From the NCBI RefSeq assembly GCF_040786275.1, contig NZ_JBFMVT010000002.1:4092001-4156000 (forward strand): a stretch of 64,000 bases of DNA, given 5' to 3'. The translations under genes and the position numbers were made by a program. Shown here one piece after another: positions 8,381 to 31,570 of this stretch (the first letter of the stretch is position 1; every line of letters begins with the position of its first letter). The notes under the pieces are model-generated. The model saw only the letters and a program-made list of their open reading frames with translations, made no database searches and was not told where the DNA came from. Source of the DNA: Buttiauxella gaviniae. GTDB taxonomy: Bacteria > Pseudomonadota > Gammaproteobacteria > Enterobacterales > Enterobacteriaceae.

Positions 8381-10429
8381 ATGCAAACGGAAAACCCGTT
8401 CTATCACGTCAGTTTATTGCCGTATCAGGCCCCTCATTTTGACGATATTCATGACAACCACTACCGCCCGGCGTTTGACCAGGCCAAACAGATTAAACGC
8501 GAAGAGATCGCGGCGATAGCAAATAACCAGGCTGAACCGACCTTCGAGAATACGTTTTTGGCGCTGGAAAACACCGGCCATATGCTCGGGCGCGTCACCC
8601 ACGTTTTTTTCGCGATGACTGCCGCGCATACCAATGATTATTTGCAGCAACTGGATGAAGAATTTGCCGCAGAACTGGCTGAACTGGCCGATGAAATGCG
8701 CCTTAACCCTGTGCTATTTGCGCGCCTGGATAACGTCTATCAGCGCCGGGATACATTAGGCCTGGATGCCGAATCGCTGCGTTTAGTTGAAGTGGTGTGG
8801 CAAAGTTTTACCCTCGCTGGAGCAACGTTGAGCGAAGAGAAGAAAGCGCGCCTCAAAGTGCTCAATAAAGAAGCCGCGCAGCTAAGTAGCCAGTTTAATA
8901 ACCGTCTTCATGCCGCAGATAAGGCCGCAGCTCTGATCGTCGATGATGTGCTGCACCTGGACGGGTTAACGCCTGCTGAAATCGCCGCGGCGGCGCAGCA
9001 CGCCAAAAACAGAGGGCTGGACGGAAAGTATTTACTTCCGCTGCTCAATTTCACTCAACAGCCTGCGCTGCAATCTTTGAGCCATCGCCCGACGCGTGAA
9101 AAACTGTTTAAAGCGGGCTGGGACCGCACTCAGCAAAATGACAGTCACGACACGCGTGCGATTGTCGCTCGTCTGGCTTTGCTTCGCGCAGAGCAGGCGC
9201 AATTGTTAGGGTTTGAAAACTATGCGGCCTGGAAAATTGCCGACCAGATGGCTCAATCGCCGCAGGCTGCCCTGAAATTTATGCGTGACATTGTGCCTGC
9301 CGCCACCGCGCGTGCGCAACGCGAGCTGGCCGATATTCAAAATGTGATTGACGCGCAGCAGGGCGGGTTTAAAGCCGAAGCCTGGGATTGGGCGTTTTAT
9401 GCCGAGCAGGTAAGGCGTGCGAAGTACGACCTCGATGAAGCGCAAATCAAACCCTATTTTGAACTCAATAACGTGTTAGCCAACGGTGTGTTTTGGGCAG
9501 CCAGCCAGTTGTTTGGCCTGAATTTTGTCGAACGCTTTGATATTCCGGTCTATCACGACGATGTGCATGTGTGGGAGATCTTTGATAAAGACGGTCGCGG
9601 CATGGCGCTGTTTTATGGAGACTTCTTCGCCCGCGACAGCAAAGGCGGCGGAGCATGGATGGGCAACTTTGTTGAGCAATCGACGCTCTTTGATAGTGCG
9701 CCGGTGATCTATAACGTCTGCAATTACAACAAACCGGCAGTCGGTGAAGCGGCGCTGATTTCATGGGATGATGTCGTTACGCTGTTCCACGAGTTCGGTC
9801 ATACTTTGCACGGCTTGTTTGCCACTCAGCGTTACGCAACGCTTTCAGGAACCAACACACCGCGTGATTTTGTGGAGTTTCCGTCACAAATTAACGAACA
9901 CTGGGCGCGCCAGCCGCAGGTCTTTGCAAACTACGCTCGCCATTACCAAACCGCCGAACCGATGCCCGACGCGCTGAAAGAAAAGTTATTCCGTGCCGCG
10001 CGCTTTAACAAAGGCTACGACATGACGGAACTGCTTGCCGCAGCCCTTCTGGATATGAACTGGCATAGCTTGCCTGCGGAGAGTGAGATTGACGATGTGG
10101 CGCAGTTTGAAGCGCAGGCGCTCGAAGGGGAACGCATCAACCTTGCTGCGGTACCACCACGCTATCGCAGCAGCTATTTTGCCCATATCTTCGGCGGTGG
10201 CTACGCCGCGGGTTACTACGCCTATATCTGGACGCAAATGCTGGCGGACGATGGGTACCAGTGGTTTGTAGAGCAGGGTGGATTGACAGCGCAAAACGGC
10301 CAGCGTTTCAGGGATGCTATTTTGTCGCGCGGAAACAGCCAGGAGCTTAAAGCGTTATACAATGACTGGCGAGGTCACGATCCTTACAGCGAACCGATGC
10401 TTGAAAATCGCGGTTTAGCGGGGGAGTAA
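8381..10429 (+). CDS. dcp: Peptidyl-dipeptidase Dcp
   Basis: Zinc metallopeptidase of the M3 family, 682 aa (E. coli about 681), that removes C-terminal dipeptides from oligopeptides in peptide turnover. It has the M3 zinc signature HEFGHTLHG (HExxH beginning at residue 470), with the third ligand Glu about 25 residues later in FVEFPSQINEHW. The C-terminal GGGYAAGYYAY motif is also typical. The ATG follows AGGAGTGCAGC, a good ribosome site. It is followed by a REP pair and then by the oppositely oriented yciA. Confidence 0.96.
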   Translation: MQTENPFYHVSLLPYQAPHFDDIHDNHYRPAFDQAKQIKREEIAAIANNQAEPTFENTFLALENTGHMLGRVTHVFFAMTAAHTNDYLQQLDEEFAAELAELADEMRLNPVLFARLDNVYQRRDTLGLDAESLRLVEVVWQSFTLAGATLSEEKKARLKVLNKEAAQLSSQFNNRLHAADKAAALIVDDVLHLDGLTPAEIAAAAQHAKNRGLDGKYLLPLLNFTQQPALQSLSHRPTREKLFKAGWDRTQQNDSHDTRAIVARLALLRAEQAQLLGFENYAAWKIADQMAQSPQAALKFMRDIVPAATARAQRELADIQNVIDAQQGGFKAEAWDWAFYAEQVRRAKYDLDEAQIKPYFELNNVLANGVFWAASQLFGLNFVERFDIPVYHDDVHVWEIFDKDGRGMALFYGDFFARDSKGGGAWMGNFVEQSTLFDSAPVIYNVCNYNKPAVGEAALISWDDVVTLFHEFGHTLHGLFATQRYATLSGTNTPRDFVEFPSQINEHWARQPQVFANYARHYQTAEPMPDALKEKLFRAARFNKGYDMTELLAAALLDMNWHSLPAESEIDDVAQFEAQALEGERINLAAVPPRYRSSYFAHIFGGGYAAGYYAYIWTQMLADDGYQWFVEQGGLTAQNGQRFRDAILSRGNSQELKALYNDWRGHDPYSEPMLENRGLAGE

Positions 10430-10919: not shown

Positions 10920-11452
10920 TTCTCTTCCTGCGGCATGTGCCGGTAGATGTAGACACCGCTCAGCAGCGTAAACACCAGGGTTGCCGCCGTCAGGCCGAAC
11001 ACTTTAAAGTTGACCCAGACGCTTTGTGGTAGCCAGAACGCCACATAAATATTGAGCGCCCCGCAGATAATGAAGAACAGCGCCCACGCCACGTTCAAAC
11101 GTGACCACACGCTTTGCGGCAGAGAGATCTCTTTACCTAACATGCGCTGAATCAAAGGTTTACCCATCACCAGTTGGCTAATCAGTAAAGCTGCGGCGAA
11201 CAGGCCGTAAATCACGGTGACTTTCCATTTGATAAATTCATCATTGTGGAAGAACAACGTCAGGCCGCCGAAAACGGCCACCATCAGGAAAGTGATGAGT
11301 GCCATTTTCTCCAGCTTGCGGAATTTATACCAACTGTAGATCAGGGCAAAACCGGTCGCGACGATCAATGCGCCGGAAGCCACATAGATGTCATACATTT
11401 TATAAAATGCGAAGAAAACAATCAGGGGCAGGAAGTCGAGAAACTGCTTCAT
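10916..11452 (-). CDS. yciB: Inner membrane-spanning protein YciB (intracellular septation protein A family)
   Basis: Polytopic inner membrane protein of 178 aa (E. coli 179) of the IspZ/YciB family, linked to cell envelope maintenance and division in E. coli. It begins [19 protein letters not shown], the conserved family start, and shows about five hydrophobic segments. A conserved soluble stretch [12 protein letters not shown] sits between helices. It lies between yciC and yciA on the same strand. Confidence 0.94.
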
Positions 11453-11508
11453 AATCTGTTCCGTAAAATGACTCCCGAGCGATACAAATCGCTCAGGAGG
11501 AGTGAATG

Positions 11509-12252
11509 TTATTGGCGAACCAGCATATACAAACGGAATAAATAGATAAGCAACACGGCAGAAATCAGGTTGCTAATCGTATTTGCAATCACCGCGCCAA
11601 CCGCCGGTGAAAGCGCCGCAAATGAAGAGGCAAGCATCAGGAGTGCAGTTTTTGCCAGCAACCAGCTAATTACCGCGGGTGCCACAAGGCGCATATTTCC
11701 CCAGGCCAGACGCATACTGTTACGCATAGACTGGAAAACGCCTGCTCTGTCCTGAACAACCATAACCGGTGCAAATGAAAGCAGAATCGCTAACAGCACG
11801 CCCGGTATCACAATCAGCATGATGCCAATCTGTACCAGGAAGGTGGTCAGGAACATCAAAATAAAGATTTTAGGCAAAACTGGCGCAGAGGTACCAATGG
11901 CGCGAAGCGCACTGACGCGCTGGCCCGCAGAAACCATCTGGATTAATACCAACATGCTACCCGCGAGGATGGCATTGCCAATCAGACCTGAAAACGTCGA
12001 TGCTGCAGAGGCTTTGAGCAGCATTTGCTGTTGCTCAGGTGTCATGTTTTGCACAAGGTCAAATAGCCCAACGCTATTCGATAAATTGTCTCCCTCACTA
12101 AGGATAGACATTTGTTCTTCGCTGGGTGAAAAGGCGTGACCGATCACAACCGAAATAAAGGCACAAAGCAATGCAATCAGTAAAACAGTAACAAACTGAT
12201 TGCGTAGAAAATTCCCCGTGTCACGGTACACAGAACCCGCCGTGATAGACAT
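11509..12252 (-). CDS. yciC: UPF0259 inner membrane protein YciC
   Basis: Predicted inner membrane protein of 247 aa, the same length as E. coli YciC, with about six hydrophobic segments and no known enzymatic motif. It begins [20 protein letters not shown], typical of the UPF0259 family. ATG 12252 is preceded by AGGAGAGTGC. It is divergent from ompW and 56 bp upstream of yciB. Function is unknown. Confidence 0.93.
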
Positions 12253-14100: not shown

Positions 14101-15290
14101 TAAATTTCCCCTCGCGCTTTCAAAATGTCGTGAACGGTGAAGATGTCTTTGTCACCACGGCCAGAGAGGTTCACCACTAATAATTGTTCTTTCTCAGGAT
14201 TCTCGTTCATCATTTTCAACGCGTGGGCTAACGCATGAGAAGATTCCAGGGCCGGAATAATCCCTTCTTTGCGGCATAGCGTTTTGAAGGCTTCCAGCGC
14301 TTCATCATCGGTAATAGAGACGTAATCTGCACGGCCAATGCTGTTGAGATGCGCGTGCTGCGGCCCTACAGACGGGAAGTCCAGACCCGCAGAAATGGAA
14401 TAGGACTCTTCAATCTGGCCTTCGTCGGTTTGCATCATCGGTGATTTCATACCGAAATAGATGCCGACGCGGCCATGTTTGAGTGGCGCACCGTGTTCAC
14501 CGCTTTCGATACCGTGCCCGGCGGGCTCAACGCCAATCAGGCCTACTTTAGGTTCATTGATGAAATCAGCGAACATGCCGATGGCATTAGAGCCACCGCC
14601 CACGCAGGCGATAACGGCATCTGGCAGACGGCCTTCTTTTTCGAGGATCTGCGCTTTTGTCTCTTCCCCAATCATGCGCTGGAATTCGCGCACGATAGTC
14701 GGGAACGGGTGCGGGCCTGCCGCGGTGCCGAGCATATAGTGCGCGGTGTCGTAGCTGCCAGACCAGTCGCGCAGCGCTTCGTTACAGGCATCTTTCAGCG
14801 TGGCGGAACCGCTATGCACTGGGATCACTTCTGCACCCATCAGGCGCATACGGAACACGTTTGGCGACTGGCGCTCAACGTCTTTCGCACCCATATAAAT
14901 ACGGCATTTCAGGCCGAGCAGGGCGCTTGCCAGGGCAGAAGCCACACCGTGCTGACCGGCGCCGGTTTCGGCGATGATTTCGGTTTTGCCCATTTTCTTA
15001 GCAAGCAGCGCCTGGCCGAGTACCTGGTTAGTTTTATGCGCACCGCCGTGCAGCAAATCTTCACGCTTTAAGTAGAGCGTGGTTTTTGTCCCTTCGGTCA
15101 GATTACGGCATTTGGTCAGCGCCGTTGGGCGACCGGCATAATTTTTTAGCAGGTCGTTAAATTCAGCCTGAAACTCCGCATCACTTTGCGCGGCAACAAA
15201 TGCTTCTTCTAACTGACGCAGCGCAGGCATCAGGATTTGCGGCACATACATGCCGCCAAACTCGCCAAAATAGGGATTAAGTAAAGTCAT
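14100..15290 (-). CDS. trpB: Tryptophan synthase beta subunit
   Basis: PLP enzyme of 396 aa (E. coli 397) that condenses indole with serine to give tryptophan. The PLP lysine is in [18 protein letters not shown], the phosphate-binding loop is [12 protein letters not shown], and [10 protein letters not shown] is also conserved. ATG 15290 gives the conserved [13 protein letters not shown] start. A longer open frame extends upstream but overlaps trpC, so it is not used. It is 10 bp after trpC. Confidence 0.97.
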
Positions 15291-20102: not shown

Positions 20103-20984
20103 TTGAGCGAACCAACACTTGCGGTGATTTACGACTTACATAGCCATACCACCGCGTCAGATGGCCTGCTAACGCCCGAGGCGTTGGTGCAACGTGCTGT
20201 GGAAATGCGTGTTGGTATTCTGGCAATCACAGACCATGACACAGTAGCCGGAATTGCGGCCGCAAGGGAAGCAGTATCACGTCTACAATTGCCTTTGCGT
20301 TTAATCAGCGGGGTTGAGATCTCAACCGTCTGGGAAAACCATGAAATTCATATCGTTGGCTTAGGTGTGGATGAGCATCATCCGGCGTTGCTCACCTTTC
20401 TGGCGCAGCAAAGTGAGCGCCGGGTACAGCGTGCGGCGTTAATCGCAGAGCGACTGGAAAAAGCACATATTCCCGGAGCGCTAATAGGGGCGATGCGCCA
20501 TGCCAACGGTGGAGAAGTGACCCGCGGCCATTTTGCGCGTTTTCTGGTGGAGTGCGGTAAGGCCAACACGATGGCCGATGTGTTTAAGAAATATCTCGCA
20601 AAAGGGAAAACCGGTTACGTTCCGCCACAGTGGTGTACAATAGAACAAGCTATTGATGTGATTCATCATTCTGGTGGGCAAGCGGTTCTGGCACATCCAG
20701 GCCGTTATGACCTGACGGCTAAATGGCTGAAAAGGTTGCTGGCGCAGTTTGCCGAAAGTGGTGGCGATGCCATGGAAGTCGCGCAGTGTCAGCAGGCCCC
20801 AAATGAGCGCACCCAGCTTGCGAGCTATGCGAAGCAATTTAATTTGCTGGCATCGCAGGGTTCAGATTTCCATATGCCGTGTGCGTGGATCGAACTCGGG
20901 CGAAAGCTCTGGTTGCCTGGCGGTGTTGAGCCTGTCTGGCAGAATTGGGGTAGCGGCCACATTGCACAAGAGAGGGCAGTATGA
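20103..20984 (+). CDS. trpH: RNase AM / 5'-3' nucleotidase TrpH (PHP domain)
   Basis: PHP-family metal-dependent phosphoesterase; the E. coli protein (YciV, RNase AM) removes 5' nucleotides from short RNAs and matures 5' ends of rRNA. Metal ligands are visible in DLHSHTTASDG, AITDHDT, GVEISTVWENHEIH, LAHPGRY and QGSDFHMP. The start is TTG 20103, because GGAG lies 8 nt upstream and the resulting 293 aa equals the E. coli length. An ATG at 20061 would add 14 residues lying beside the trp promoter and is less likely. The end overlaps yciO (ATGA). Confidence 0.93.
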   Translation: MSEPTLAVIYDLHSHTTASDGLLTPEALVQRAVEMRVGILAITDHDTVAGIAAAREAVSRLQLPLRLISGVEISTVWENHEIHIVGLGVDEHHPALLTFLAQQSERRVQRAALIAERLEKAHIPGALIGAMRHANGGEVTRGHFARFLVECGKANTMADVFKKYLAKGKTGYVPPQWCTIEQAIDVIHHSGGQAVLAHPGRYDLTAKWLKRLLAQFAESGGDAMEVAQCQQAPNERTQLASYAKQFNLLASQGSDFHMPCAWIELGRKLWLPGGVEPVWQNWGSGHIAQERAV

Positions 20985-21601
20985 GTCAATTTTTTTATAT
21001 TCACCCGGATAACCCGCAGCAGCGTCTGATTAACCAGGCGGTAGAGATTGTTCGCAAAGGTGGCGTTATTGTTTACCCTACCGACTCGGGCTATGCGCTG
21101 GGTTGTAAACTTGAAGATAAATCGGCGATGGAACGCATCTGTCGAATTCGCCAGTTACCGGACGGGCACAACTTTACGTTGATGTGCCGTGATTTGTCGG
21201 AGCTTTCAACTTACGCATTCGTCGATAATGTGGCGTTTCGTTTAATCAAAAATAATACGCCAGGGAATTACACTTTTATTCTTAAAGGTACGAAAGAAGT
21301 CCCGCGCCGTTTACTACAAGAAAAACGTAAAACCATCGGTTTGCGCGTGCCGTCGAATCCGATTGCGCTGGCCCTGCTCGAAGTGCTGGATGAACCGATG
21401 TTGTCGACATCACTGATGCTTCCCGGTAGCGAATTTACCGAATCCGATCCGGAAGAGATTAAAGACCGCCTTGAGAAGGTCGTCGATTTGGTGATTCACG
21501 GCGGCTATCTCGGTCAGCAACCGACGACGGTCGTGGATTTGACCGACGATGCACCAGTGGTTATCCGCGAAGGTGTCGGTGATGCTAAACCTTTCTTATA
21601 A
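20981..21601 (+). CDS. yciO: Sua5/YciO/YrdC family protein YciO
   Basis: 206 aa, the same length as E. coli YciO. It has the YrdC-like fold related to L-threonylcarbamoyl-AMP synthases of tRNA t6A formation (IVYPTDSGYALGC, KNNTPGNYTFILKGT, KTIGLRVPSNPIA, PTTVVDLTDD). Activity of YciO itself is less well established than for TsaC/YrdC. It is translationally coupled to trpH. Its natural downstream neighbour rluB is separated from it here by the integrated element. Confidence 0.93.
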   Translation: MSQFFYIHPDNPQQRLINQAVEIVRKGGVIVYPTDSGYALGCKLEDKSAMERICRIRQLPDGHNFTLMCRDLSELSTYAFVDNVAFRLIKNNTPGNYTFILKGTKEVPRRLLQEKRKTIGLRVPSNPIALALLEVLDEPMLSTSLMLPGSEFTESDPEEIKDRLEKVVDLVIHGGYLGQQPTTVVDLTDDAPVVIREGVGDAKPFL

Positions 21602-21663: not shown

Positions 21664-21680
21664 GACGCCTGTGAAGGCGA
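21664..21680. repeat. Left attachment repeat (attL core)
   Basis: GACGCCTGTGAAGGCGA, identical to the copy at 30659-30675. Its core CGCC-TGTGAA-GGCG is a small dyad, as expected of a tyrosine recombinase crossover site. Joining the sequences outside the two copies restores a short yciO-rluB spacer of roughly 105 bp. Confidence 0.9.
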
Positions 21681-21814
21681 GAAGTGATTTTATTTTTTTC
21701 AATGAAATCAGATGATTGCTTTTCTTCTGGGTAGGTTGTTGGTTCGCTTGTGTGACAGTAGAATATTCACCAAATGACCTGCAATGTTGTACACCATGAG
21801 ACGTTAAAGGCATA

Positions 21815-21846
21815 AAACCCCTGCGGCACAAATGTCGCAGGGGTTT
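21815..21846 (-). terminator. Terminator of the alkyl sulfatase gene
   Basis: A perfect 11-bp stem AAACCCCTGCG / CGCAGGGGTTT around a 10-nt loop, just beyond the stop codon on the minus strand and ending in TTTT. It could act in both directions. Confidence 0.75.
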
Positions 21847-21851
21847 ACACT

Positions 21852-23831
21852 TTACGGTGTAACAATATTGAACCAGAACTCGAACTTATCCATATAGCCC
21901 AACATTTCATCGAGCTTCGCACCGTTACCGGTTACCTTAACTTCGCCTTTATCTTGAGCTTGTTTCAGGGTTTCTTCTTTCAGGATGATTTTATTCAGCG
22001 TGTCACGGTTAAGAGCAATCGTGGCATCAGCGTCTTTCGCTTCGGCATTAGCTGTGTGGTTTAATACGCCATTTTCCAGCTCGAGCTTGTACTTACCGCC
22101 GTCACTGCCAAGATCGATATTAAACACCGCTTTAGCATTACCCGCTTTTTCACCATTGATGTGAACAGCAAGGAAATCAAAGAACATTTCAGGTGTCATC
22201 GCTCGCACGGTATCCGGGCTGGCTGTATTCGGCGTTGGGCCTTTCACCACACCATTACGCAGTTCTTGGGCACCTGTCAGGTAGAAGTTACGCCACGGGC
22301 CAGATTCGGCCTGGTAGCCCAACTGTTCCAAAGCATCTGCTTCAAGATTACGTGCATTCTGGTTATTTGGATCGGCAAACACGACTTTACTCACCACCTG
22401 AGCAACCCAACGGTAATTACCCTGATCAAAGTCAGTTTTGGCTTTTTGAAGAATTGCGTCGGCACCACCCATGTACTCAACAAATTTCTTGGCAGCTTCT
22501 TCTGGCGGCAACTCGTCCAGTGTTGCTGGATTGCCATCAAACCAGCCGAGGTAAAGCACATAAGTTGCTTTTACGTCATGGCTGACAGAACCGTAATAAC
22601 CCCGGTTAGCCCAAGTTTTTGACAGTGAATCTGGCAGCTTGAAATTGGCAGCGATTTCATCTCGAGTCAGGCCCTGGTTCGCCATACGTAGAGTTTGGTC
22701 GTTAATGTAACGATACAAATCCCGCTGGCTTTTCAGCAGGTTAACCACGTTCTCATTGCCCCAAGTCGGCCAGTGGTGTTGAGCCATAATAATTTCAGCT
22801 TTGTCACCCCAACGAACGATTGCTTCGTTGATATATTTTGACCAAGGCAGTGGTTCCCGGATTTTGGCACCACGTAGTGAATAAGTGTTGTGCAGAGTGT
22901 GGGTAACATCTTCTGCGGATTCGATGAGTTTTTTCTCTTCAATAAACCACAACATTTCAGAAGGTGCTTCGGAACCAGGTGCCAACATGAAGTCATAAGT
23001 CAGACCGTCGATGACTTCTTTCTGTCCATCCTTCTCGATTATGTTAGTGGGCGCGATAAGCGTAACCGTGCCTGCTGACGTGGTAGTACCCAGCCCCGCA
23101 CCAACCTGACCTGTTGCATCAGGTTTTAAAAGGTTGCCATACATGTAGCTGGCGCGGCGGCTCATAACGTTGCCAGCCATGATGTTTTCAGCAACGGCAG
23201 CTTCCATGAAACCTGAAGGTGCATAAACTTTTACCTTGCCTGACTTCACATCGGCTTCATCCACAACACCACGCACACCGCCGTAGTGGTCAACATGGCT
23301 GTGAGTGTAAATGATAGCTACGACAGGTTTCTTACCTCTATTTTTGAAGTATAAATCCATACCCACTTTTGCCGTTTCTGCGGAAACGAGTGGGTCAACG
23401 ACAGTAATACCTTCTTTACCCTCAATAATGGTCATGTTGGATAAATCAAGGTTACGGATCTGGTAAACGCCGTCTGTTACTTCGAAAAGACCGCTGATGT
23501 TGATGAGCTGGGACTGACGCCACAGACTCGGGTTTACAGTGTCAGGGGCTTTTTCACCTTCTTTTATAAAAGCGTATTGTTGTGGATTCCAGACCACATT
23601 CCCTTGCTCTCCCTTAATAACTTCCTGAGGCAAAGCGGCGATAAAACCTTTATGGGCGTTCGTGAAGTCGGTGTTATCTGAGAAAGGCAGTTGATTATAA
23701 AGTGCGTCGTTAGCCTGTTTGGTCGAAGCCGTAGCAGGCTTTGTCACTTCCTGTGCAAAGAGTGGTGTCAGTGCCGTTGATGAAAGTAATCCGGCAAGGG
23801 CAAGACTTTTTACTACTAATTTTAGTCTCAT
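21852..23831 (-). CDS. Secreted SdsA/YjcS-type alkyl sulfatase (metallo-beta-lactamase fold)
   Basis: Hydrolyses primary alkyl sulfates such as dodecyl sulfate to an alcohol and sulfate, by family. The 659-aa protein begins with a cleavable signal peptide (residues 1-26, ending LFAQE), so it acts in the periplasm or outside. The binuclear zinc motif THSHVDHYGG is at residues 176-185. PGSEAPSEMLWF, THTLHNTYSLRGAK and QHHWPTWGNENV are typical of the family, and the last about 120 residues form an SCP2-like lipid-binding domain. It resembles E. coli YjcS across its length but is clearly diverged. It is the leftmost gene of the integrated element and its likely cargo. Confidence 0.88.
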   Translation of the reverse strand: MRLKLVVKSLALAGLLSSTALTPLFAQEVTKPATASTKQANDALYNQLPFSDNTDFTNAHKGFIAALPQEVIKGEQGNVVWNPQQYAFIKEGEKAPDTVNPSLWRQSQLINISGLFEVTDGVYQIRNLDLSNMTIIEGKEGITVVDPLVSAETAKVGMDLYFKNRGKKPVVAIIYTHSHVDHYGGVRGVVDEADVKSGKVKVYAPSGFMEAAVAENIMAGNVMSRRASYMYGNLLKPDATGQVGAGLGTTTSAGTVTLIAPTNIIEKDGQKEVIDGLTYDFMLAPGSEAPSEMLWFIEEKKLIESAEDVTHTLHNTYSLRGAKIREPLPWSKYINEAIVRWGDKAEIIMAQHHWPTWGNENVVNLLKSQRDLYRYINDQTLRMANQGLTRDEIAANFKLPDSLSKTWANRGYYGSVSHDVKATYVLYLGWFDGNPATLDELPPEEAAKKFVEYMGGADAILQKAKTDFDQGNYRWVAQVVSKVVFADPNNQNARNLEADALEQLGYQAESGPWRNFYLTGAQELRNGVVKGPTPNTASPDTVRAMTPEMFFDFLAVHINGEKAGNAKAVFNIDLGSDGGKYKLELENGVLNHTANAEAKDADATIALNRDTLNKIILKEETLKQAQDKGEVKVTGNGAKLDEMLGYMDKFEFWFNIVTP

Positions 23832-24205
23832 TACTAATCCTCATTAAAACAAGTCTCATTACTCGGCGTTTACGAATAGTAACCAGAGTGTACGATTAAT
23901 TAACAACCCGTTGATTATTGCAACCTTTTACTATCGTTTTTTAAATATAACCAGAGACTTAGAATTTTCCATTTTTCATCAGAGAATTTTTGACACATAA
24001 ACTTTCGGCGCTCTTAACGGCCTAACCCTGCCTACTTTTTCCAGTACCTGAAAAATCAACACAACGTTTACTTGTAAATCAATTAATCTATTGATTGATC
24101 ATTTTTATCGATCAATAATCCAATTTCAATAGAATTAATCAATCGGTCTAATGAGGTAATTAAGCGACAGGCCGTGAGATATATAATAAAAGTGAGCAAA
24201 TTTTC
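23832..24205. other. AT-rich intergenic region with dyads
   Basis: This 374-bp gap between two divergent genes should hold both promoters. From 24078 to 24147 it is dense in ATTAATC/GATTAAT and TTGATC/GATCAA motifs, including TTGATC-ATTTTTATC-GATCAA. These could form operator sites or a curved, silencer-bound stretch. No gene is visible. Confidence 0.35.
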
Positions 24206-24448
24206 ATGTTTAAAGCCATGTGGTTGATGCTTATTGCATGCGGGGTCTCTACTTGCGTCTCTGCGGCAGAGAATGTTAGTCATGAAAAGGTTGAATCTGA
24301 GATTCGTAGGGCTGGCTATGAATGCGAAAGAGTGGATGGTATGGAGTCTTCTATCTTTGGTAATGAAATTACCGTGACTTGCGACAGAGCGTATAAATTC
24401 CTCATCAGATATGAGCGTGGTGGGACAATTGTTGAGGTCGTTAGTTGA
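24206..24448 (+). CDS. Small secreted protein of unknown function
   Basis: 80 residues. The first about 21 form a signal peptide (MFKAMWLMLIACGVSTCVSA, then AEN). The mature part of about 59 residues has two cysteines (in YECERVD and VTCDRAYK) that could make a disulfide. The pattern HEKVESEIRRAGYECERV with a beta-rich C-terminus resembles small periplasmic domains but matches nothing I can name. The ribosome site is weak. It is divergent from the alkyl sulfatase and lies upstream of the res-like site, inside the integrated element. Confidence 0.6.
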   Translation: MFKAMWLMLIACGVSTCVSAAENVSHEKVESEIRRAGYECERVDGMESSIFGNEITVTCDRAYKFLIRYERGGTIVEVVS

Positions 24449-24623
24449 ACTTTCCCGCCCCGGCTCTAAATCACTGATACCCCATCACGCTATAAACAGG
24501 TCGGCACAAATATCTTGCTGACCATTTTTCCGTTGTCCCATGAGCTGAGGTGCTTAACGATTCACTGGCTGAGTTGACAGTCACTTCGTTCTTCCAGAAA
24601 TATCTGTATGGTAGTCATTATCA
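24449..24623. other. Non-coding spacer before the res-like site
   Basis: 175 bp with no open frame of note and no clear terminator; it leads into the dyad array upstream of the resolvase gene. Confidence 0.3.
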
Positions 24624-24744
24624 CTGGTGTCATTAATCGTTCGTTTTGCGATACCAGACATTATCCCTTCAAACTGGTATCAACAATATAGGGTATTGAC
24701 ATAAAGACACCAGAAAGTAATTATGATACCGTTTTTGATACCAG
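24624..24744 (+). promoter_or_regulatory. res-like recombination site and resolvase promoter
   Basis: Five to six copies of an 8-bp word (GATACCAG or GACACCAG and the reverse CTGGTATC/CTGGTGTC) occur as dyads: 24624-24631 reverse, 24650-24657 forward, 24674-24681 reverse, 24706-24713 forward, 24737-24744 forward, plus GATACC at 24725-24730. Dyads of about 32-40 bp directly upstream of a resolvase gene are the hallmark of res subsites. TTGACA at 24696-24701 with an AT-rich -10 candidate at about 24718 lies within the array, so the resolvase probably represses itself. Confidence 0.7.
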
Positions 24745-24757
24745 TCGAGGGGATGTT

Positions 24758-25342
24758 ATGAGCCGCACTTTTGCATATTGCCGTGTTTCCACCAGCGAGC
24801 AGGCCACAGAAAACCAAATCATTGCGATTCGTCAGGCTGGCTATGATGTGCCTGATAATCGTGTTGTCTCGGAAACCGTATCCGGTGGCGTACAGGCAAT
24901 GAAGCGTAAAGGCTTTGCCAATATGGTTACTCATAAGCTGGAAGCCGGGGATCGGCTGGTGGTGTTGAAGCTGGATCGCCTGGGTCGCGATAATCTCGAT
25001 GTACAGCAAACTATCGCAATGCTGGTGGAGAAGGGAATCGATGTTGTATCGCTGGATCTGCCTGTGCGTAATCTCACCAGCGCAGAAGGAAAGTTGATGT
25101 TGCAAATGTTTTCGGCCTTCGCGGAGTTCGAAAAGTCCCGCATCATTGAGCGTACCAAAGAGGGCCTCGCACGGGCGAAGAAGGAAGGCAAGAAGTTAGG
25201 TCGTCCTGTGGCGACTGATACACTTAAGAGGGTGCAGGAAGCCAAAGCAGGTGGATTGAGTCAGTCAAAGGCTGCGCGTGAATTAGGGTTGAGCCTACCA
25301 ACGATTAAGCGCAACTGGAATACTAAAAAAGGATCACTGTAA
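24758..25342 (+). CDS. Serine site-specific recombinase (resolvase/invertase family)
   Basis: 194 aa. The N-terminal catalytic domain has FAYCRVSTSEQATENQ, with Arg9 and nucleophile Ser11, and later VLKLDRLGRD with active-site Arg. The E-helix region MFSAFAEFEKSRIIERTKEG leads to a C-terminal helix-turn-helix (GLSQSKAARELGLSLPTIKR). By family it cuts both strands at dyad sites and either resolves cointegrates or inverts DNA; the dyad array immediately upstream favours resolution. GAGGGG lies 5 nt before the ATG. The only transposon-type gene seen is this one; no transposase accompanies it. Confidence 0.92.
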   Translation: MSRTFAYCRVSTSEQATENQIIAIRQAGYDVPDNRVVSETVSGGVQAMKRKGFANMVTHKLEAGDRLVVLKLDRLGRDNLDVQQTIAMLVEKGIDVVSLDLPVRNLTSAEGKLMLQMFSAFAEFEKSRIIERTKEGLARAKKEGKKLGRPVATDTLKRVQEAKAGGLSQSKAARELGLSLPTIKRNWNTKKGSL

Positions 25343-25516
25343 GCAACTGAAATAATAGCAATATAGCGTATTGATAAGTGATTTTTCCTTACGCGATTGT
25401 ATCCTTTGCCCAAGTCCGTTCTGCACATAAAAAACATTATTGATCAGATGGGTATTGAGTTGTATATTTGTACAGGCTGGACACTAATACAGGTTACTAA
25501 CAACTAAGGCGGGTCA

Positions 25517-26512
25517 ATGTCTGCAAAGTCTGAGTTTTTTTCCAGTTTCGTCGATATAGAAAAGCGTCCGCGCTTCTCCTCTGAATGTGAAATCAATCCT
25601 GAAAACTTTAAAGCTCTTGTTGGTGAGTACCGATTGGATGAAGATGTGATTTGCCAAGTGAAAGGTCACAAGGGCATTTGCCATCAAAAGCATAGAAGCG
25701 GCTGGTTAGGGGTAACCAATGATGAGCAAGAAGTTCTAATCGGCGGTCACTGTGCCCGTAACTATTTCAAAGCGGATAAATCATTTGCACTCGAACGAAA
25801 GCGTGTTCGAAAAGAAATTGATAGAAAGATTGCCTTGTATAAGCTGGAAGAGTACCGAAAAAATAAAATGAGCATCAATGATGAGTTGTCCTGTTTGCGA
25901 CAAGAAATCATTGATACCAGAGTAAAACTCGACCAAGTTCACAAGCATTTTCCAAATGCGGTCCTTAGCTTTATCGAGAGCGCTCAGAAAACCAAAAACT
26001 GGGAGCTGAAAATCGATGTGCAAGACGGATACGCGGATAATGGCGAAGCTAAATGGGTGTCAGGTTCATTGGGCAAAAGGAAGACGCTGCCCTACAGCTA
26101 TGAAGTCTTTGGGTTGATGAACAATGTGAAAACCCTTTCCGCAACTTTTGACGAGGCATGTCAGGTCAACCCAGACGATATCAAAACACCAAAGCTCAAG
26201 AGAATAATAGAAATTCTTAATGAAAAAGAAGAGTTTAAGAAAACCAGCTCAGATCTACATAGAGATGTTTTTGCCTTCATTGAGTCACAGAATCTGGAAC
26301 CTTTGATCTACACTTGTGATGACTACGAAGAGGAGTACCTCGCAGCTAAAGCAATCATGGCTATCACAGGTGCGAAAGTGTCAAGTGAAGGGCATATCAA
26401 TCTTCGACTGAGGCGGATAAAGGAACGTATAGAGAAACAATTTGACGGCAAACTTGTCAGAAAAAACCAGATTTCCGAAAGATTCCAACGTCGAAACGCA
26501 TTCGTGGGTTAG
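25517..26512 (+). CDS. Unrecognised 331-aa protein with Cys/His N-terminus and coiled coil
   Basis: I do not recognise this family. Residues 40-85 carry Cys46, Cys55, His56 and Cys79 (CQVKGHKGICHQK ... GGHCARNYF), a possible single metal site. Residues about 88-145 are strongly charged and helical, suggesting a coiled coil. The C-terminal region ends with Lys/Arg-rich helices (LRRIKERIEKQF), suited to nucleic acid binding. There is no signal peptide or membrane segment. The ribosome site AAGGCGGGTCA precedes the ATG. Base use is AT-rich compared with flanking core genes. It is followed by a terminator and lies between the resolvase and the replication gene. Confidence 0.65.
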   Translation: MSAKSEFFSSFVDIEKRPRFSSECEINPENFKALVGEYRLDEDVICQVKGHKGICHQKHRSGWLGVTNDEQEVLIGGHCARNYFKADKSFALERKRVRKEIDRKIALYKLEEYRKNKMSINDELSCLRQEIIDTRVKLDQVHKHFPNAVLSFIESAQKTKNWELKIDVQDGYADNGEAKWVSGSLGKRKTLPYSYEVFGLMNNVKTLSATFDEACQVNPDDIKTPKLKRIIEILNEKEEFKKTSSDLHRDVFAFIESQNLEPLIYTCDDYEEEYLAAKAIMAITGAKVSSEGHINLRLRRIKERIEKQFDGKLVRKNQISERFQRRNAFVG

Positions 26513-26537
26513 ACCCTCTCTCTATTTTTTATAAGAG

Positions 26538-26561
26538 CCTCGCCATGTGCGGGGTTTTTTT
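26538..26561 (+). terminator. Rho-independent terminator after the 331-aa gene
   Basis: Stem CCTCGC / GCGGGG (one G-T pair) with loop CATGT, followed by seven T. The remaining sequence to 26813 holds no gene I can support. Confidence 0.75.
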
Positions 26562-26813
26562 GTCTGCATTTCAGCCATTTGATCCGGGAAAACGGGAAAC
26601 CTGTACCAGACTCTGGGGATTGAATAGATTGAAAAATCTCTCGCGGAGATGAGAATAATGGGCTATATTTAAAAGTTAACCTCAGGTGGTTAATGGACGG
26701 TGTTGTTAAACGCAATGAGCGCCATTGTGTGCGCTTTTCGTGGTGGGGGTAATGCGAAGGTACTGCCTTTGATTTTGAATGGCGTGGCGGGCATTACACG
26801 AAGATTTTCGCGA

Positions 26814-27548
26814 TCATGGTTTTTTGTTTCGAAGTTGCGAAGTCGAATGAACCTTGTCGCCTTTGCCCGTTTGGTACTTTCCGCGCTCCTTTGCGAGATA
26901 CGACAACCAGAGGAGAGGCCCTTCAAGGGTTTCCGGTTTCCCTCGTTCGATAACATAGTGTTTCGTGTACTTGTCGCTTGATTTCGGTAGCTCCACCAGC
27001 GTTCGCTCACCTCCTGACAGATTCGCCCAGACTTCGGTGATAGTACCAGCAATGCCACTTGTCGGCGTTCCAAGTCGTTTCACCTGCCGATGCGGAAGGG
27101 CTATCCAGCAATGGTAATGCACCTGTTTTGCCATCTCTTTCTCCCGCACCCAGCCGTAAGCGAAGTTGATGACCGGATTTGCCAGTCCTTCGGGCCTGCG
27201 AAACTTCGATTTCAGGCGCTCGCGTAGTTTCTTGAATAGCTGGCTTATCCATTCGTTAGCAATGTCTACGGGCGTGCCTGCTGGTATGCGGAGATCAAAG
27301 CGGGTGAGGTAAACACGACTGTAAGCGCCCAGCATTGCGTCAAGTTCTGCGGCGATTGGCGCAAGGATATCTAACCGGACGCCGGATCTGTCAGTGGTGT
27401 TGATCGGGTAGGGGGAGCTGTTATGAAAAAACTTGTCGCCCGTGATAACCGGATATCGTCCGTGATCGTGGACAACTGTTCTATAAGGCGTGGTTTGTGG
27501 CTGCTCTGACTGTGCGGTTGTTAATTCTGGTTGCATCTGCTGTAGCAA
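26814..27548 (-). CDS. Inovirus Gp2 / YagK-YfjJ family putative replication protein
   Basis: 244 aa. The pattern LTRFDLRIP, a helical stretch, FAYGWVREKE and then HYHCWIAL (His144 and His146) matches the domain shared by E. coli YagK and YfjJ and the Gp2-like proteins of filamentous phages. The HxH element resembles the metal-binding motif of HUH rolling-circle initiators, so a replication role is inferred, not shown. The start is taken as TTG 27548, because AGGAGG lies about 5 nt upstream; ATG 27536 would lose 4 residues and has worse spacing. It is the last gene of a leftward gene set that starts with the integrase. Confidence 0.75.
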   Translation of the reverse strand: MLQQMQPELTTAQSEQPQTTPYRTVVHDHGRYPVITGDKFFHNSSPYPINTTDRSGVRLDILAPIAAELDAMLGAYSRVYLTRFDLRIPAGTPVDIANEWISQLFKKLRERLKSKFRRPEGLANPVINFAYGWVREKEMAKQVHYHCWIALPHRQVKRLGTPTSGIAGTITEVWANLSGGERTLVELPKSSDKYTKHYVIERGKPETLEGPLLWLSYLAKERGKYQTGKGDKVHSTSQLRNKKP

Positions 27549-27585
27549 AGTCCCTCCTCTGACTGTTTACATGAATACTCTCTCG

Positions 27586-27613
27586 CGTGCGTGTATACGT
27601 GTACGTGCGTATA
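27586..27613. repeat. Hairpin with repeated CGTGCGT, candidate replication origin
   Basis: Just upstream of the putative replication gene, CGTGCGTGTATA (27586-27597) and CGTGCGTATA (27604-27613) form an imperfect direct repeat. TATACG and CGTATA (27594-27599 and 27608-27613) form a hairpin with an 8-nt loop. A hairpin near the initiator gene is what a double-strand origin of rolling-circle replication looks like; no nick site can be proved by reading. Confidence 0.4.
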
Positions 27614-27781
27614 AGTTATTACCATCAGACCACCGCGAAAGGACAGCCACAGGCACGGATAAAGCCCGCGCCATTAAAGGTATCACAGGCAATTCAAGTG
27701 GTGTGGATTTTTTCGAAAGAAGTTTACATGTGGAAATAACCCAAAATTAATCATACGCTCAAATTCGGATAGGTGCAAAAA

Positions 27782-27913
27782 TTATTTTATTCGGCGGTAC
27801 TTCTCTGGTTCTGCATCGGCAAGTTCTTTCGCCTTTTTGATGGCGCGTTTCAACGCCTTTTCGTCGACAACATGAACGAGGCATTCGCCCCCTTTCTTTG
27901 CTGTAGCTGTCAT
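27782..27913 (-). CDS. Small 43-aa basic protein
   Basis: Starts at ATG 27913, overlapping the stop of the upstream 163-aa gene (ATGA). GGAG lies 7 nt before it, which is strong evidence of coupled translation. The product begins MTATAKKGGECLVHVV and continues as a Lys/Glu/Ala-rich helix (ALKRAIKKAKELADAEPEK). No family is recognised. It belongs to the leftward gene set of the integrated element, ahead of the replication gene. Confidence 0.55.
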   Translation of the reverse strand: MTATAKKGGECLVHVVDEKALKRAIKKAKELADAEPEKYRRIK

Positions 27914-28401
27914 GCTTTAGCTCCGTTCAGGAGAGAGCGTAAGCGATCCCGCATTGCTGCTTGCTCTGCCTCTGCTTGTTCTTCGGCCTTCCGTTGTGAG
28001 TCCTCAGCGGCCTGTTGAATAAGTTCATCAATCTCGTGCTCCATAGCTATAAAGATTTCATCGCTGTAATCGTCAGAAGCCTTGGATCGTAGCGCCTTAA
28101 GTTCCGCTTCAACCAGTGACGCAGGCTTTTGCAGAGTAACGGAAATCATTGATGAATTGGCAAGCACCGAGGCAGGCCCAGAAAGATGAAACCGCCAGCC
28201 GTCAAGGATCAGGGTCTGGAGCCTGTCCACCAGCCGCGCCGGGATATCGGCAAAGTTCTGAAACTTGTTATAGCGGGCTTCGGCGTTTTCAATTCGACGC
28301 TGCAAAATTTCTGGATTTGGTTGGTATTTTGCAGCGATCTTATCAATATAATTCTGCAATTCTGGGTCGAACTGGTTCAGTAACTTTTTCTTTGTTGTCA
28401 T
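27910..28401 (-). CDS. Unrecognised 163-aa helical protein
   Basis: Starts at ATG 28401, with GGAG 7 nt upstream; an in-frame TTG at 28425 is less likely. The protein is soluble and mostly helical, with an N-terminal Lys-rich start (MTTKKKLLNQFDPELQ). The C-terminal 40 residues are Glu/Ala/Gln-rich and probably a coiled coil (EEQAEAEQAAMRDRL). There is no cysteine cluster, signal peptide or known catalytic motif. It is coupled to the 43-aa gene by ATGA. A regulatory or replication accessory role is only a guess from position. Confidence 0.6.
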   Translation of the reverse strand: MTTKKKLLNQFDPELQNYIDKIAAKYQPNPEILQRRIENAEARYNKFQNFADIPARLVDRLQTLILDGWRFHLSGPASVLANSSMISVTLQKPASLVEAELKALRSKASDDYSDEIFIAMEHEIDELIQQAAEDSQRKAEEQAEAEQAAMRDRLRSLLNGAKA

Positions 28402-28501
28402 GCTGGGTCTCCGTATCGGTAGCAAATGGGTGTAGTAATTTGCTGGCGCTGGTGGTGTGCGTCAGTCGTTACCGCTGCTTTGCGGTGGTTTTTAGGGTCT
28501 A

Positions 28502-28843
28502 TCAGAAATTGGCGTTAAAAGCCTGATTACAGGCAGGGCAGTAGTTAGCGCGTCCTGTGGTGAGAAGATACCAACGGCAGACACCCGAACGGTCAATGAT
28601 GTAATCGACCAGGCCAAAATCGGCAAATCTGGAAAGATTCCGGTGCGTTGTCGATAAAGGCAAATTAGTCAGCAGTGACAGGTAAGAAGCCGTAAGCGGA
28701 ACCAAAGTTTGTATCAGATAGTGGAGAAGATTGATCCGGGAAGTTGTTAGGGTTAACCCGGACTTCTTGAGGATGCTTACCAGCTTTTTACGCTCGCCAC
28801 TTGATGGTGGATTAAATGCTGGTGGGGGAAGATAGTTACACAA
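28502..28843 (-). CDS. Truncated Fur-family winged-helix regulator
   Basis: 113 aa. Residues about 20-95 match the DNA-binding domain of Fur/Zur proteins: LKKSGLTLTTSRINLLHYL, then PLSTTHRNLSRFADFGLVD (the StvYRtLxxLxexGLV recognition region), then a wing. It stops shortly after YCPACNQAF (Cys102, Cys105), so the usual metal-sensing and dimerisation domain is missing. The start is TTG 28843 with AGAGG 7 nt upstream. A Fur-box-like palindrome lies 58 bp upstream. It probably regulates the element's own genes; whether it senses metal is open. Confidence 0.7.
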   Translation of the reverse strand: MCNYLPPPAFNPPSSGERKKLVSILKKSGLTLTTSRINLLHYLIQTLVPLTASYLSLLTNLPLSTTHRNLSRFADFGLVDYIIDRSGVCRWYLLTTGRANYCPACNQAFNANF

Positions 28844-28891
28844 TATGTCCTCTCGTAAGTTATTTATCTTAAAGCTATTTTATCACGAACC

Positions 28892-28930
28892 AGCTACAAT
28901 TGCAAATGATTCTCATTAGTGATTGTAGCT
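28892..28930. promoter_or_regulatory. Fur-box-like site inside a 9-bp inverted repeat
   Basis: TGCAAATGATTCTCATTAG (28901-28919) matches the core of the Fur consensus (AATGATNNTCATT type). It is framed exactly by AGCTACAAT (28892-28900) and ATTGTAGCT (28922-28930), a perfect 9-bp inverted repeat. It lies between the integrase stop and the Fur-like gene start, so it may be the operator for that gene, the end signal of the integrase transcript, or both. Confidence 0.6.
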
Positions 28931-28962
28931 GTCGAAAAACTGGTTGCTCAATAGATTTTGTT

Positions 28963-30567
28963 CTAACTTTGAAAATCGACAACACATAACAAATCTTTCA
29001 ATGGTGGGCGGTGGGTGTATATGGAGGTCACACCCAAACTTTGGCTTCTTGCGTGTCCGACGACAAATTGTAAAAGTGGTGTAGATACTCCAGCTGCAAG
29101 GCAGTTACTCACGAAGGTATGGCGTAAACTATGAATACGGCGTTTCAGACCGAATTCATCATAATCTGGAATGCTGAGTTCTTTCATTATACTGATCCAT
29201 TCATCGGTAGCTGTGGTGTAATTAGGTAATCCATTGAATATCAGGTCGTTTTCTTTAAGCTGGGCAATCAAGCTATGTATTCCAACCTCTAATGTTCTGT
29301 TTAGAGGGATCTGACGTTGCGCATGGTCGGTTTTGCCTTCTTCAATGAAAATGTACCAACGACCAGTTTCTTCATTTTGGCGAATATCCTTTTTCCTGAT
29401 TGAAGATATTTCACCACGACGAGCACCTGTATAGATTAGCGTGAGGAAGTACCACTTGCGCCAATCGGTATCTACAAGTGAAAACAATTTTGTCTTTAAT
29501 TTTGCGAGTTCACCAGCGCTGTAATGGCCTCTTCGATTTGGCCTCACTTCATATGAAATGCCATCGGTAGGTGATTTTTCCAACAAATCTTTGGTCTCTA
29601 CTAAGTATATCCTGAACAATGAGCGCCAGATTTTTAGATGTTTCTCCACGTGGGCGCTGCTGATGAGGTCTTCTTCTGAAACGTCGTAATTAATGCTTTC
29701 TTCAAGGCTTAACTTTGAAAACGGGAGCTTGTTCCGTGTCGGTAAGTTTTCGGCAACTTTTAGAGCTTCACGTATATCTTGTTTGGTAATCGACTCTATT
29801 GGTTTGTCACCGATGGCGTAAAGTAGTACATCATAGAAGCGTTGATTTTCGTTTGCAGTGGCTCTCCGCCACTTTTGCCCTTTATCTTTAACATACCCAT
29901 CCCAGGCTTTTGAAAGTGATAGTGAAGGCATTTTGGGAGAAGGGGATGATGTTTCTGATGGCGTATTTGTCAGTCGTGTTTTTTCCTTAGCTAAAAGACT
30001 CATTACCTGATCATATCGAGGTGCGTCGCCAGATGATAAAGCGCTGATAGCCTGAAATTGCAGATCATGGTAGTAGACCATTTTTTTAGTATTTTCGAGA
30101 ATTACTGGTTTGAGTTCATCAGGAACAATGTATTCTTTATCTAATCCCCAGAGTTCCAAAGCTCCAGCCTCATCAATTGCCATCATCTTTTGACGCATTG
30201 CTTCTGACATTTTCCGGGCATTGTCGGCCTGTTCTGAAAAAGGTTTTTTTGAGCTGTAGAATCGAGGATTTGCGGATGTGTAATCAGCATCAGCGATATT
30301 GATTTCCAATACATTTAGCAAAAGCTGGTCAAGACCATCTTTTGTTAGCTCACGCATCCCACCCAAGCGTTGTTTGAACTCTTCAACGGTCATGGCACCA
30401 CTTTGTACCAGTGGAATAAATGGACGCACCCGGCTCATCATCACTTCTGCTTGTCGAAAGCTGTCAGTACCTAAAGAAATTCGAATGTAACTTGGTGAAC
30501 CATTTATTCTAAAATTCGTGTAATATGTGCGCCCACGAATCATTGTGTGTGACAGCTTGTGTGACAT
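28963..30567 (-). CDS. Tyrosine-type site-specific integrase
   Basis: About 534 aa. The C-terminal catalytic domain shows TGARRGEISSIRKKDI (first Arg), EEGKTDHAQRQIPL (Lys), HSLRHTFVSNCLAAG (His-x2-Arg), VVGHARSQS (His) and the nucleophile Tyr in TSIYTHRP. A long N-terminal part contains arm- and core-binding regions. ATG 30567 is preferred, with CAGGG 8 nt upstream; an ATG at 30591 adds 8 residues but has no ribosome site. It lies 92 bp from the right attachment repeat and is the likely enzyme for integration at the rluB site. Excisionase is not identified. Confidence 0.92.
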   Translation of the reverse strand: MSHKLSHTMIRGRTYYTNFRINGSPSYIRISLGTDSFRQAEVMMSRVRPFIPLVQSGAMTVEEFKQRLGGMRELTKDGLDQLLLNVLEINIADADYTSANPRFYSSKKPFSEQADNARKMSEAMRQKMMAIDEAGALELWGLDKEYIVPDELKPVILENTKKMVYYHDLQFQAISALSSGDAPRYDQVMSLLAKEKTRLTNTPSETSSPSPKMPSLSLSKAWDGYVKDKGQKWRRATANENQRFYDVLLYAIGDKPIESITKQDIREALKVAENLPTRNKLPFSKLSLEESINYDVSEEDLISSAHVEKHLKIWRSLFRIYLVETKDLLEKSPTDGISYEVRPNRRGHYSAGELAKLKTKLFSLVDTDWRKWYFLTLIYTGARRGEISSIRKKDIRQNEETGRWYIFIEEGKTDHAQRQIPLNRTLEVGIHSLIAQLKENDLIFNGLPNYTTATDEWISIMKELSIPDYDEFGLKRRIHSLRHTFVSNCLAAGVSTPLLQFVVGHARSQSLGVTSIYTHRPPLKDLLCVVDFQS

Positions 30568-30610
30568 GTTGTTTGCCCTGCTGTATATCATGAAATAGTT
30601 ACATATCAGT

Positions 30611-30637
30611 GAGTTAACTTAATCTGGCTGTTAACTC
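30611..30637. repeat. Inverted repeat between int and attR
   Basis: GAGTTAAC and GTTAACTC, perfect 8-bp arms around 11 bp, lie 22 bp inside the right attachment repeat and upstream of the integrase gene. This position suits an integrase arm site or an operator of the int promoter. Confidence 0.5.
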
Positions 30638-30658
30638 GTTGTTTTTGCAAGTATACCA

Positions 30659-30675
30659 GACGCCTGTGAAGGCGA
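30659..30675. repeat. Right attachment repeat (attR core)
   Basis: GACGCCTGTGAAGGCGA, identical to 21664-21680. It ends 5 bp before the rluB ribosome site (GAGGAAG) and 16 bp before its ATG, so the integration target is the 5' untranslated region of rluB rather than a tRNA gene. Confidence 0.9.
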
Positions 30676-30691: not shown

Positions 30692-31570
30692 ATGAGCGAT
30701 AAGAGCGAAAAGTTACAAAAAGTTTTAGCCCGCGCAGGTCATGGTTCACGTCGTGAGATTGAAGCCATTATCTCTGCTGGCCGTGTCAGTGTGGACGGTA
30801 AAATCGCCACATTAGGCGATCGTGTTGAAGTGACCCAGGCCCTGAAAATTCGTATTGATGGTCACCTGATCTCTATTAAAGAATCCGCAGAGCAGATTTG
30901 TCGTGTCCTGGCGTATTACAAACCAGAAGGCGAATTATGCACGCGTAACGACCCGGAAGGGCGTCCAACGGTATTTGACCGTTTACCAAAACTGCGCGGC
31001 GCGCGCTGGATTGCGGTAGGGCGTTTAGATGTAAACACCTGCGGTCTGTTGCTGTTCACAACCGATGGTGAGCTGGCGAACCGCTTGATGCACCCAAGTC
31101 GTGAAGTAGAACGCGAATACGCCGTGCGCGTCTTCGGCCAGGTTGATGATGACAAAGTGAAGCAACTGGCGCGTGGCGTGCAGCTAGAAGATGGTCCAGC
31201 CGCGTTCAAAACCATCAAGTTTACCGGTGGCGAAGGCATCAACCAATGGTACAACGTGACTCTGACCGAAGGCCGCAACCGTGAAGTGCGTCGTCTTTGG
31301 GAAGCCGTCGGTGTGCAGGTGAGCCGTCTTATTCGTGTGCGTTACGGCGACATTCAGTTACCTAAAGGCATACCGCGTGGTGGTTACACTGAGCTCGACC
31401 TGGCCCCAACGAACTACCTGCGTAAACTGGTAGAGTTACCGGAAGAGACAGAAAGCAAAGTGGCGGTTGAAAAAGATCGTCGTCGTGTGAAAGCGAACCA
31501 GATTCGCCGTGCGGTGAAACGCCATACGCAAGTCACTGGCGGTGGTCGCCGCGGTGGACGCAGTAGCTAA
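30692..31570 (+). CDS. rluB: 23S rRNA pseudouridine(2605) synthase RluB
   Basis: Makes pseudouridine 2605 in helix 93 region of 23S rRNA. 292 aa (E. coli 291). It has an N-terminal S4 RNA-binding domain ([20 protein letters not shown]), then the RsuA/RluB catalytic motif [14 protein letters not shown] with the catalytic Asp, and a basic tail ending GGRRGGRSS. The ribosome site GAGGAAGCTCA precedes the ATG. The integrated element ends only 16 bp upstream, so the native promoter must have been displaced and expression now depends on sequences in the element or on readthrough. Confidence 0.96.

Follow-up and report, generated by a model that had tools for sequence, protein, structure and literature searches.

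Most enterobacterial genomic islands integrate into transfer RNA (tRNA) genes. The described systems closest to the element studied here include the flk-type flagellin islets of Escherichia coli, such as GI10 of ECC-1470 (locus L066; L numbers denote fetched loci and G numbers genomes of the family). In the available part of its description, GI10 with flkA is an islet linked to unilateral phase variation (PMC5422975). They also include the I55-type intY islands (PMC12595487) and the PICMI satellites (PMC10803314), both compared below as far as the available parts of these articles describe them, and small plasmids with an inovirus Gp2-type replication protein (Rep), e.g., pRHB38-C24_9 (3.7 kb). 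We analysed a 64,000-nucleotide stretch of Buttiauxella gaviniae (assembly GCF_040786275.1, contig NZ_JBFMVT010000002.1, positions 4,092,001 to 4,156,000; hereafter the window), in which a 9-kb element is inserted between yciO and rluB. With a probability of roughly 0.8, judging from its sequence, we read it as an integrative plasmid-like element, i.e., a circle docked by its integrase and replicated by its Rep, which would hitchhike with a helper and carry an alkyl sulfatase as cargo.

The element exhibits the same gene order as the flk-type islets (resolvase, Rep, winged-helix gene, integrase), and the resolvase of L066 is 85% identical to that of the window, with the same res-like site. The flk-type islets differ by an integrase from another clade, their location at rnpB and their flagellin cargo, whereas the window element occupies the rluB leader and has no flagellin. 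The I55-type islands share with it a tyrosine integrase, direct repeats, an inovirus Gp2-like gene, a helix-turn-helix gene and the lack of transfer genes, and their defence-type cargo is matched by that of relatives of the window element (PMC12595487). They differ by their transfer-messenger RNA (tmRNA) target, alpA and larger shared regions, and no resolvase is named for them in the available part of the article; the Gp2-like protein was recognised in the window element (PF11726), but the window contained no tmRNA and no AlpA match was obtained. PICMIs are also small islands with an integrase and a replication gene and without capsid genes, but int, alpA and primase are mandatory in them and their site is fis, whereas neither alpA nor primase was recognised in the element at rluB (PMC10803314). 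The small plasmids with a Gp2-type Rep have a Rep of the same family, a resolvase-family recombinase and a related block upstream of rep, but they are free circles without integrase and their recombinases are only 28-29% identical to that of the window. Because of the features shared with flk-type islets and I55-type islands, the window element is akin to these described islands, and what is unusual is its site preference. An earlier sequence-only reading had called it a hitchhiking element that could not be placed in a named family; hitchhiking is still the best reading, with no recognised transfer genes, but the element is not unplaceable, since its backbone is shared with flk-type islets and resembles I55-type islands. 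One modular backbone would link the free small plasmids to the islets with flagellin and to the islands with defence genes.

The element is a site-specific tyrosine-integrase genomic island, with an integrase, direct repeats and a site that is empty in relatives. The sequence-only reading had described identical 17-bp repeats at the two ends, an integrase adjoining the right copy, an otherwise intact yciO-rluB neighbourhood and a right copy located 5 bp ahead of the ribosome site of rluB, and we recovered all of these features, both flanking genes being intact by Pfam and NCBIfam and five bases separating the repeat from GAGGAAG. The repeat, GACGCCTGTGAAGGCGA, is not scattered: two copies were found in the window with at most 3 mismatches, against 0.15 expected, and the whole genome (4,764,459 bases in 2 contigs) contains only the two copies at the element ends when at most 2 mismatches are allowed. 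The GC content is 44.9% in the element versus 51.4% in the remaining window, and no tRNA or tmRNA was detected in the 64 kb.

The empty sites and the different occupants anticipated by the same reading were both observed. In 11/11 other species of the genus compared, a single core copy lies between yciO and rluB without insertion, and the flanks of the window, merged at the core, match these sites at 137-145 of 155-157 columns; different elements occupy the same site in other genera. Since the genus otherwise has empty sites, the arrival of the window element would be recent. The 16-bp core GACGCCTGNGAAGGCG was found in 255 of 392 family genomes (249 of the 379 good-quality ones), and many of the genomes without it are small, reduced ones. 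In E. coli, 5,372 of 5,426 genomes match the locus; 3,928 have one place covering at least 80% of the yciQ-rluB leader query and 1,436 one place covering at least 80% of the yciO-rluB leader query without yciQ. Provided that these two query sets do not overlap, at most 8 E. coli genomes are interrupted at the locus; seven occupied strains were seen at the rluB leader.

The target is the conserved leader hairpin that the core forms ahead of the rluB start codon. CCTGNGAAGG is located within 70 nt upstream of the rluB start in 81 of the 84 fetched loci, many of which are repeats or near-copies, and the three loci without it correspond to one Yersinia locus in triplicate, whose core is further upstream. 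Among 8 distinct cores, 39/40 stem-pair cells were standard, with one two-sided change (C-G to U-A), some wobble and one break. The evidence for a functional RNA hairpin is modest because the search pattern fixed the inner stem and the loop and let only the outer two pairs vary.

We read the copies of TGTGTGACA as putative arm-type integrase sites: three are present in the window against 0.55 expected, all close to the element ends. This motif was examined in 12 elements, 10 of them of the window type. At the left end, an exact copy occurs at position 85-86 in 9/10 window-type elements, the tenth having a one-mismatch copy at 87. At the right end, two exact copies 12 bp apart were recovered in 9/10, one of the two being changed in L036. 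These right-end copies are mostly 117 and 129 from the end; the distances in the window (118 and 130) and in L007 (111 and 123) are shifted because the right end was set one base further in the former and short in the latter. The motif was kept where the integrase is broken (L034, L035, and L077).

All 13 named integrase relatives have yciO or rluB in the examined stretch (in L073, yciO is 7 kb away and rluB lies beyond that stretch), and both cores were present as direct repeats in 12 different elements. The integrase adjoins rluB and points away from it in most elements, but five loci (L013, L038, L073, L076, and L079) harbour reversed elements with the integrase on the yciO/yciQ side. In the integrase tree, 17 rluB-site integrases were separated from the 4 rnpB, thiM and G009 ones (support 100/99). 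Four of the five integrases of reversed elements grouped together (100/100), and that of L076, a partial, long-branch row, branched beside that of the window. Clustering of the open reading frames (ORFs) of 13 same-site elements recovered the integrase in 13 and the serine recombinase in 11 (excluding helicase-size proteins of L007, 528 aa, and L038, 489 aa, chained to this cluster); the Rep, the winged-helix gene and the 80-aa protein were present in 7, 6 and 4 elements, respectively. The Pectobacterium element L074 (5.9 kb) has a near-minimal set: 80-aa protein, zinc-ribbon protein, recombinase, Rep, winged-helix protein and integrase. Between the E. coli strains A17 and H15, identity is 99.4-99.7% in the flanks but 87% over the 7.1 kb of the elements that align, which marks these elements as independent arrivals. 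At the level of sequence comparison, precise insertion, a duplicated core, near-fixed arm spacing and repeated independent occupation of the site are established, and the rluB leader emerges as a conserved integration hotspot outside tRNA genes.

Some of these loci exhibited further rearrangements. The regulator-Rep-recombinase block is found in either orientation relative to the integrase (L036, L003, and L009 versus the window, L074, and L066), as if it had been inverted or exchanged as a unit. At L076, the stretch 8629-9875, between yciO and the reversed element, ends in the apparent right end of another element, which suggests stacked insertions.

To characterise the backbone, the 8 element ORFs of at least 80 aa were scanned against Pfam and NCBIfam, and 7 of them also against PHROGs and PADLOC. 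The HUH-like replication protein and the resolvase named in the sequence-only reading both find support, the latter as a serine recombinase (PF00239). The label of a Fur-like regulator does not: the protein is a winged-helix one whose best matches are of the IclR and MarR types, both below cut-off, with a sole Fur-family match at E=0.063. HUH proteins are defined by the HUH motif and a downstream Tyr; besides matching PF11726 above cut-off, the Rep has an H-Y-H and a Tyr that were invariant in 6/6 and 7/7 Reps in two comparisons. Its relatives are annotated as inovirus-type Gp2 and occur on 29 plasmid records, and the four such plasmids examined measure 3.7-11.6 kb. A block upstream of rep is common to three integrated elements and three plasmids with small differences. 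The res-like site was kept in 11/11 chosen sequences from rluB, rnpB and thiM elements and one plasmid, an alignment that left out the more divergent recombinases of L007, L033, L035, and L037. A Citrobacter plasmid (pCF10-F, L085) resembles the rnpB islets in combining the Rep and the recombinase with a flagellin gene and its cognate repressor.

In the integrative plasmid-like element that we propose, the integrase would recombine the 16-17-bp core of the element with the identical core of the rluB leader, via the putative arm-type sites. Integration would duplicate the core, so that rluB would keep its leader hairpin and ribosome site. Once excised, the circle would replicate from its own HUH-type Rep, a type on which free small plasmids rely; the serine resolvase and the res-like site would resolve multimers, and the winged-helix protein may regulate replication and resolution of the circle. 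As no transfer or packaging genes were recognised, the element would most likely move with a helper, either a phage or a conjugative element. Several observations weigh against this scenario. The Rep is present in only 7/13 same-site elements and is therefore not needed for integration. Its structural model gave no Foldseek match at E<=0.001, fold matches being weak, and its sequence had no relevant match among PDB sequences. TGTGTGACA is absent from the Yersinia element and the reversed Kosakonia element, 2 of the 12 examined. No Xis/AlpA-like protein was recognised among the ORFs of at least 80 aa, smaller ones being outside the family scan, and no circular-form junction was found in a scan of viral contigs.

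Table 1. Coordinates of the element, its genes and its putative sites in the window.
Feature	Position	Strand	Remarks
Element	21664-30675		9,012 bp, between yciO and rluB
yciO	20981-21601		left flank, intact by Pfam and NCBIfam
Left direct repeat (attL core)	21664..21680	+	sequence GACGCCTGTGAAGGCGA
Putative arm-type integrase site TGTGTGACA, left end	21749..21757	+	
Alkyl sulfatase (SdsA1/YjcS family), cargo	21852..23831	-	Pfam Alkyl_sulf_dimr and Alkyl_sulf_C
80-aa protein, probably secreted (N-terminus reading)	24206..24448	+	recurs in wider group
res-like site, repeated GGTATC/GATACC motifs	24624..24757	+	upstream of recombinase
Serine recombinase (resolvase/invertase family), 194 aa	24758..25342	+	PF00239
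331-aa protein, probable cargo	25517..26512	+	phrog_7003
YagK/YfjJ (inovirus Gp2-type) HUH Rep	26814..27548	-	PF11726 above cut-off; REP_ORF2-G2P below
Candidate origin block	27705..27728	-	upstream of rep, inferred
171-aa protein	27910..28425	-	40% identical relative beside winged-helix gene of thiM-site element L065
Winged-helix regulator, 113 aa	28502..28843	-	best Pfam matches HTH_IclR and MarR_2, both below cut-off
Tyrosine integrase, 542 aa	28963..30591	-	PF00589
Putative arm-type site, right end (outer)	30546..30554	+	
Putative arm-type site, right end (inner)	30558..30566	+	
12-bp inverted repeat of right end	30607..30641	+	recurs in relatives
Right direct repeat (attR core)	30659..30675	+	hairpin CGCCU-GUGA-AGGCG in rluB leader
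rluB	30692-31570		right flank, intact by Pfam and NCBIfam

As a narrower version of this scenario, we tentatively consider a phage satellite: a helper phage would trigger excision, the Rep would produce rolling-circle concatemers, and phage heads would carry them. Satellites have similar parts (integrase, regulator and replication gene), and the relatives of the window element have defence-type cargo. According to the available parts of the articles, a jumbo phage transduces the I55 elements, whose genes include an inovirus Gp2-like one and defence cargo (PMC12595487), and PICMIs are reported to replicate by rolling circle (PMC10803314). However, the 8 scanned ORFs yielded no match for AlpA, a primase, a terminase or a capsid protein, which also agrees with the earlier reading of an element without capsid or transfer genes, and no relative of the Rep was found in 50,697 phage records or confirmed in viral contigs. 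The latter result also led us to discard a filamentous-phage origin. Phage records contained no tblastn match to the 331-aa protein, although it matches phrog_7003.

Conjugative mobilisation, in which the HUH Rep would also nick an oriT-like origin and a co-resident conjugative element would move the strand, appears unlikely. HUH Reps and relaxases have a common chemistry, plasmids carry relatives of the Rep, and some relaxase families are derived from Rep proteins according to the available part of a published account (PMC11389934). Nevertheless, 25 of the 29 plasmids with a Rep relative were typed as non-mobilizable, and no relaxase or mating-pair gene was matched in Pfam or NCBIfam among the scanned ORFs. 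Still less likely is that the island arrived a single time, has lost its mobility and is decaying: remnants are common at the rluB site (integrase fragments in L035, L041, L051, and L077, and the yciQ relic discussed below) and the window element has no sign of excision, but its integrase is full length without stops, its cores are identical, its three arm-type sites are intact and its arrival in a genus with otherwise empty sites would be recent.

The site preference extends beyond rluB. All 31 integrase-family genes or remnants recovered in family genomes were located at three sites: the rluB leader (9), rnpB (6) and the thiamine pyrophosphate (TPP) riboswitch of thiM (16), with Rfam among the evidence used. 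This count comprises 20 matches (392 genomes, E<=1e-60), the G009 match and ten further ones (295 genomes, E<=1e-22), from non-exhaustive searches capped at 3 or 4 scored candidates per genome; four pieces of one G038 integrase were counted as one, the G295 contig 15 piece was counted with that of contig 21, and L017 and L018 were assigned to the rluB site through the longer stretches L038 and L039. A tRNA/tmRNA scan of 10 of these integrase loci found none. At the TPP site, the riboswitch is upstream of the integrase in the same direction in 17/17 loci (the 16 and L065), with 85-104 nt between the aligned riboswitch end and the integrase start in 15/17; L029 and L136 are outside this range because their integrase alignment begins late. 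At rnpB, the integrase is downstream and in the same direction in 8/8 loci. A 79-bp repeat of the riboswitch borders one thiM element on both sides. In L065, a TPP riboswitch was observed at both ends (4462-4558 and 15021-15118), with the integrase directly behind a riboswitch and Drt2 as cargo.

We infer from this arrangement that the riboswitch may control the integrase, which raises a testable question, the metabolite control of island mobility. A broader proposal, to which we give less than even odds, is that the whole tyrosine-integrase clan is specialised for DNA encoding structured non-tRNA RNA (the rluB leader hairpin, RNase P RNA and the thiM TPP riboswitch), insertion rebuilding the host RNA. 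At thiM and in reversed rluB elements, the host promoter and RNA element would precede the integrase, a host signal, e.g., thiamine pyrophosphate, could gate mobility, and the Rep-driven circles would be plasmids docking at RNA loci. Neither the rluB site, the thiM riboswitch site nor the three-site pattern was found in the literature searched, the coverage of which was partial.

The E. coli gene yciQ is probably old cargo of a decayed rluB-site element. Where E. coli has yciQ, the gap that separates this gene from the core is similar to element right ends, including the start of the integrase gene (L012:2835-3010); such a relic next to yciQ is also present in L122 and L123. The local alignment score of the E. 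coli gap with the A17 element was 196, above all 500 shuffles (maximum 179), and its score with the window element was reached by 1 of 1,000 shuffles. Against the A17 element, we obtained 212 for the yciQ-bearing G243, 299 for G013 (another genus), 237 for G163 (no yciQ) and 669 for G075; the shuffles were not exceeded by G030, by the E. coli leader lacking yciQ or by any of the three congeneric empty sites compared. Homologues of yciQ (E<=1e-60) were present in 7/295 family genomes, the closest two (G243 and G013) at the rluB site. A decayed element would offer a possible origin for this patchy gene; nothing linking yciQ to a genomic island was found in the partially covered literature.

The alkyl sulfatase, whose PDB relatives include SdsA1 and YjcS, was found in 68/382 family genomes (E<=1e-200). 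Copies in three congeners are 97% identical to that of the window in protein and ~84% in DNA, and the surroundings differ among the five copies with neighbours listed. It was probably acquired within the genus, as close congeneric copies sit in differing surroundings. A cargo common with a thiM-site element was considered and rejected: the L089 copy is 83% identical but is separated by the thiM-type integrase from the region where the element is expected. When 10 cargo proteins of relatives were compared with a defence library, five gave strong matches, one weak matches and four none. The strong matches came from L036 (HerA and SIR2), L079 (Drt8), L003 (a PDC-S33-like RelA/SpoT-domain protein) and L072 (a GmrSD-like protein). 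Drt2 is carried by the thiM-site element of E. coli N921, and the cargo of relatives also includes flagellin.

A new rluB promoter brought by the right end of the element was also considered; a consensus scan found none there nor in an empty site. Rfam matches on the element were limited to two sub-threshold eukaryotic snoRNA ones. A Klebsiella record named as a plasmid (L086, NZ_CP098171.1) carries the chromosomal trp-rluB region, and its rluB site has a DUF4238 gene and an integrase matched only in pieces. Outside the element, the window exhibits strong AT skew, 0.25 at 11001-12000 and 0.18-0.22 at 62001-64000.

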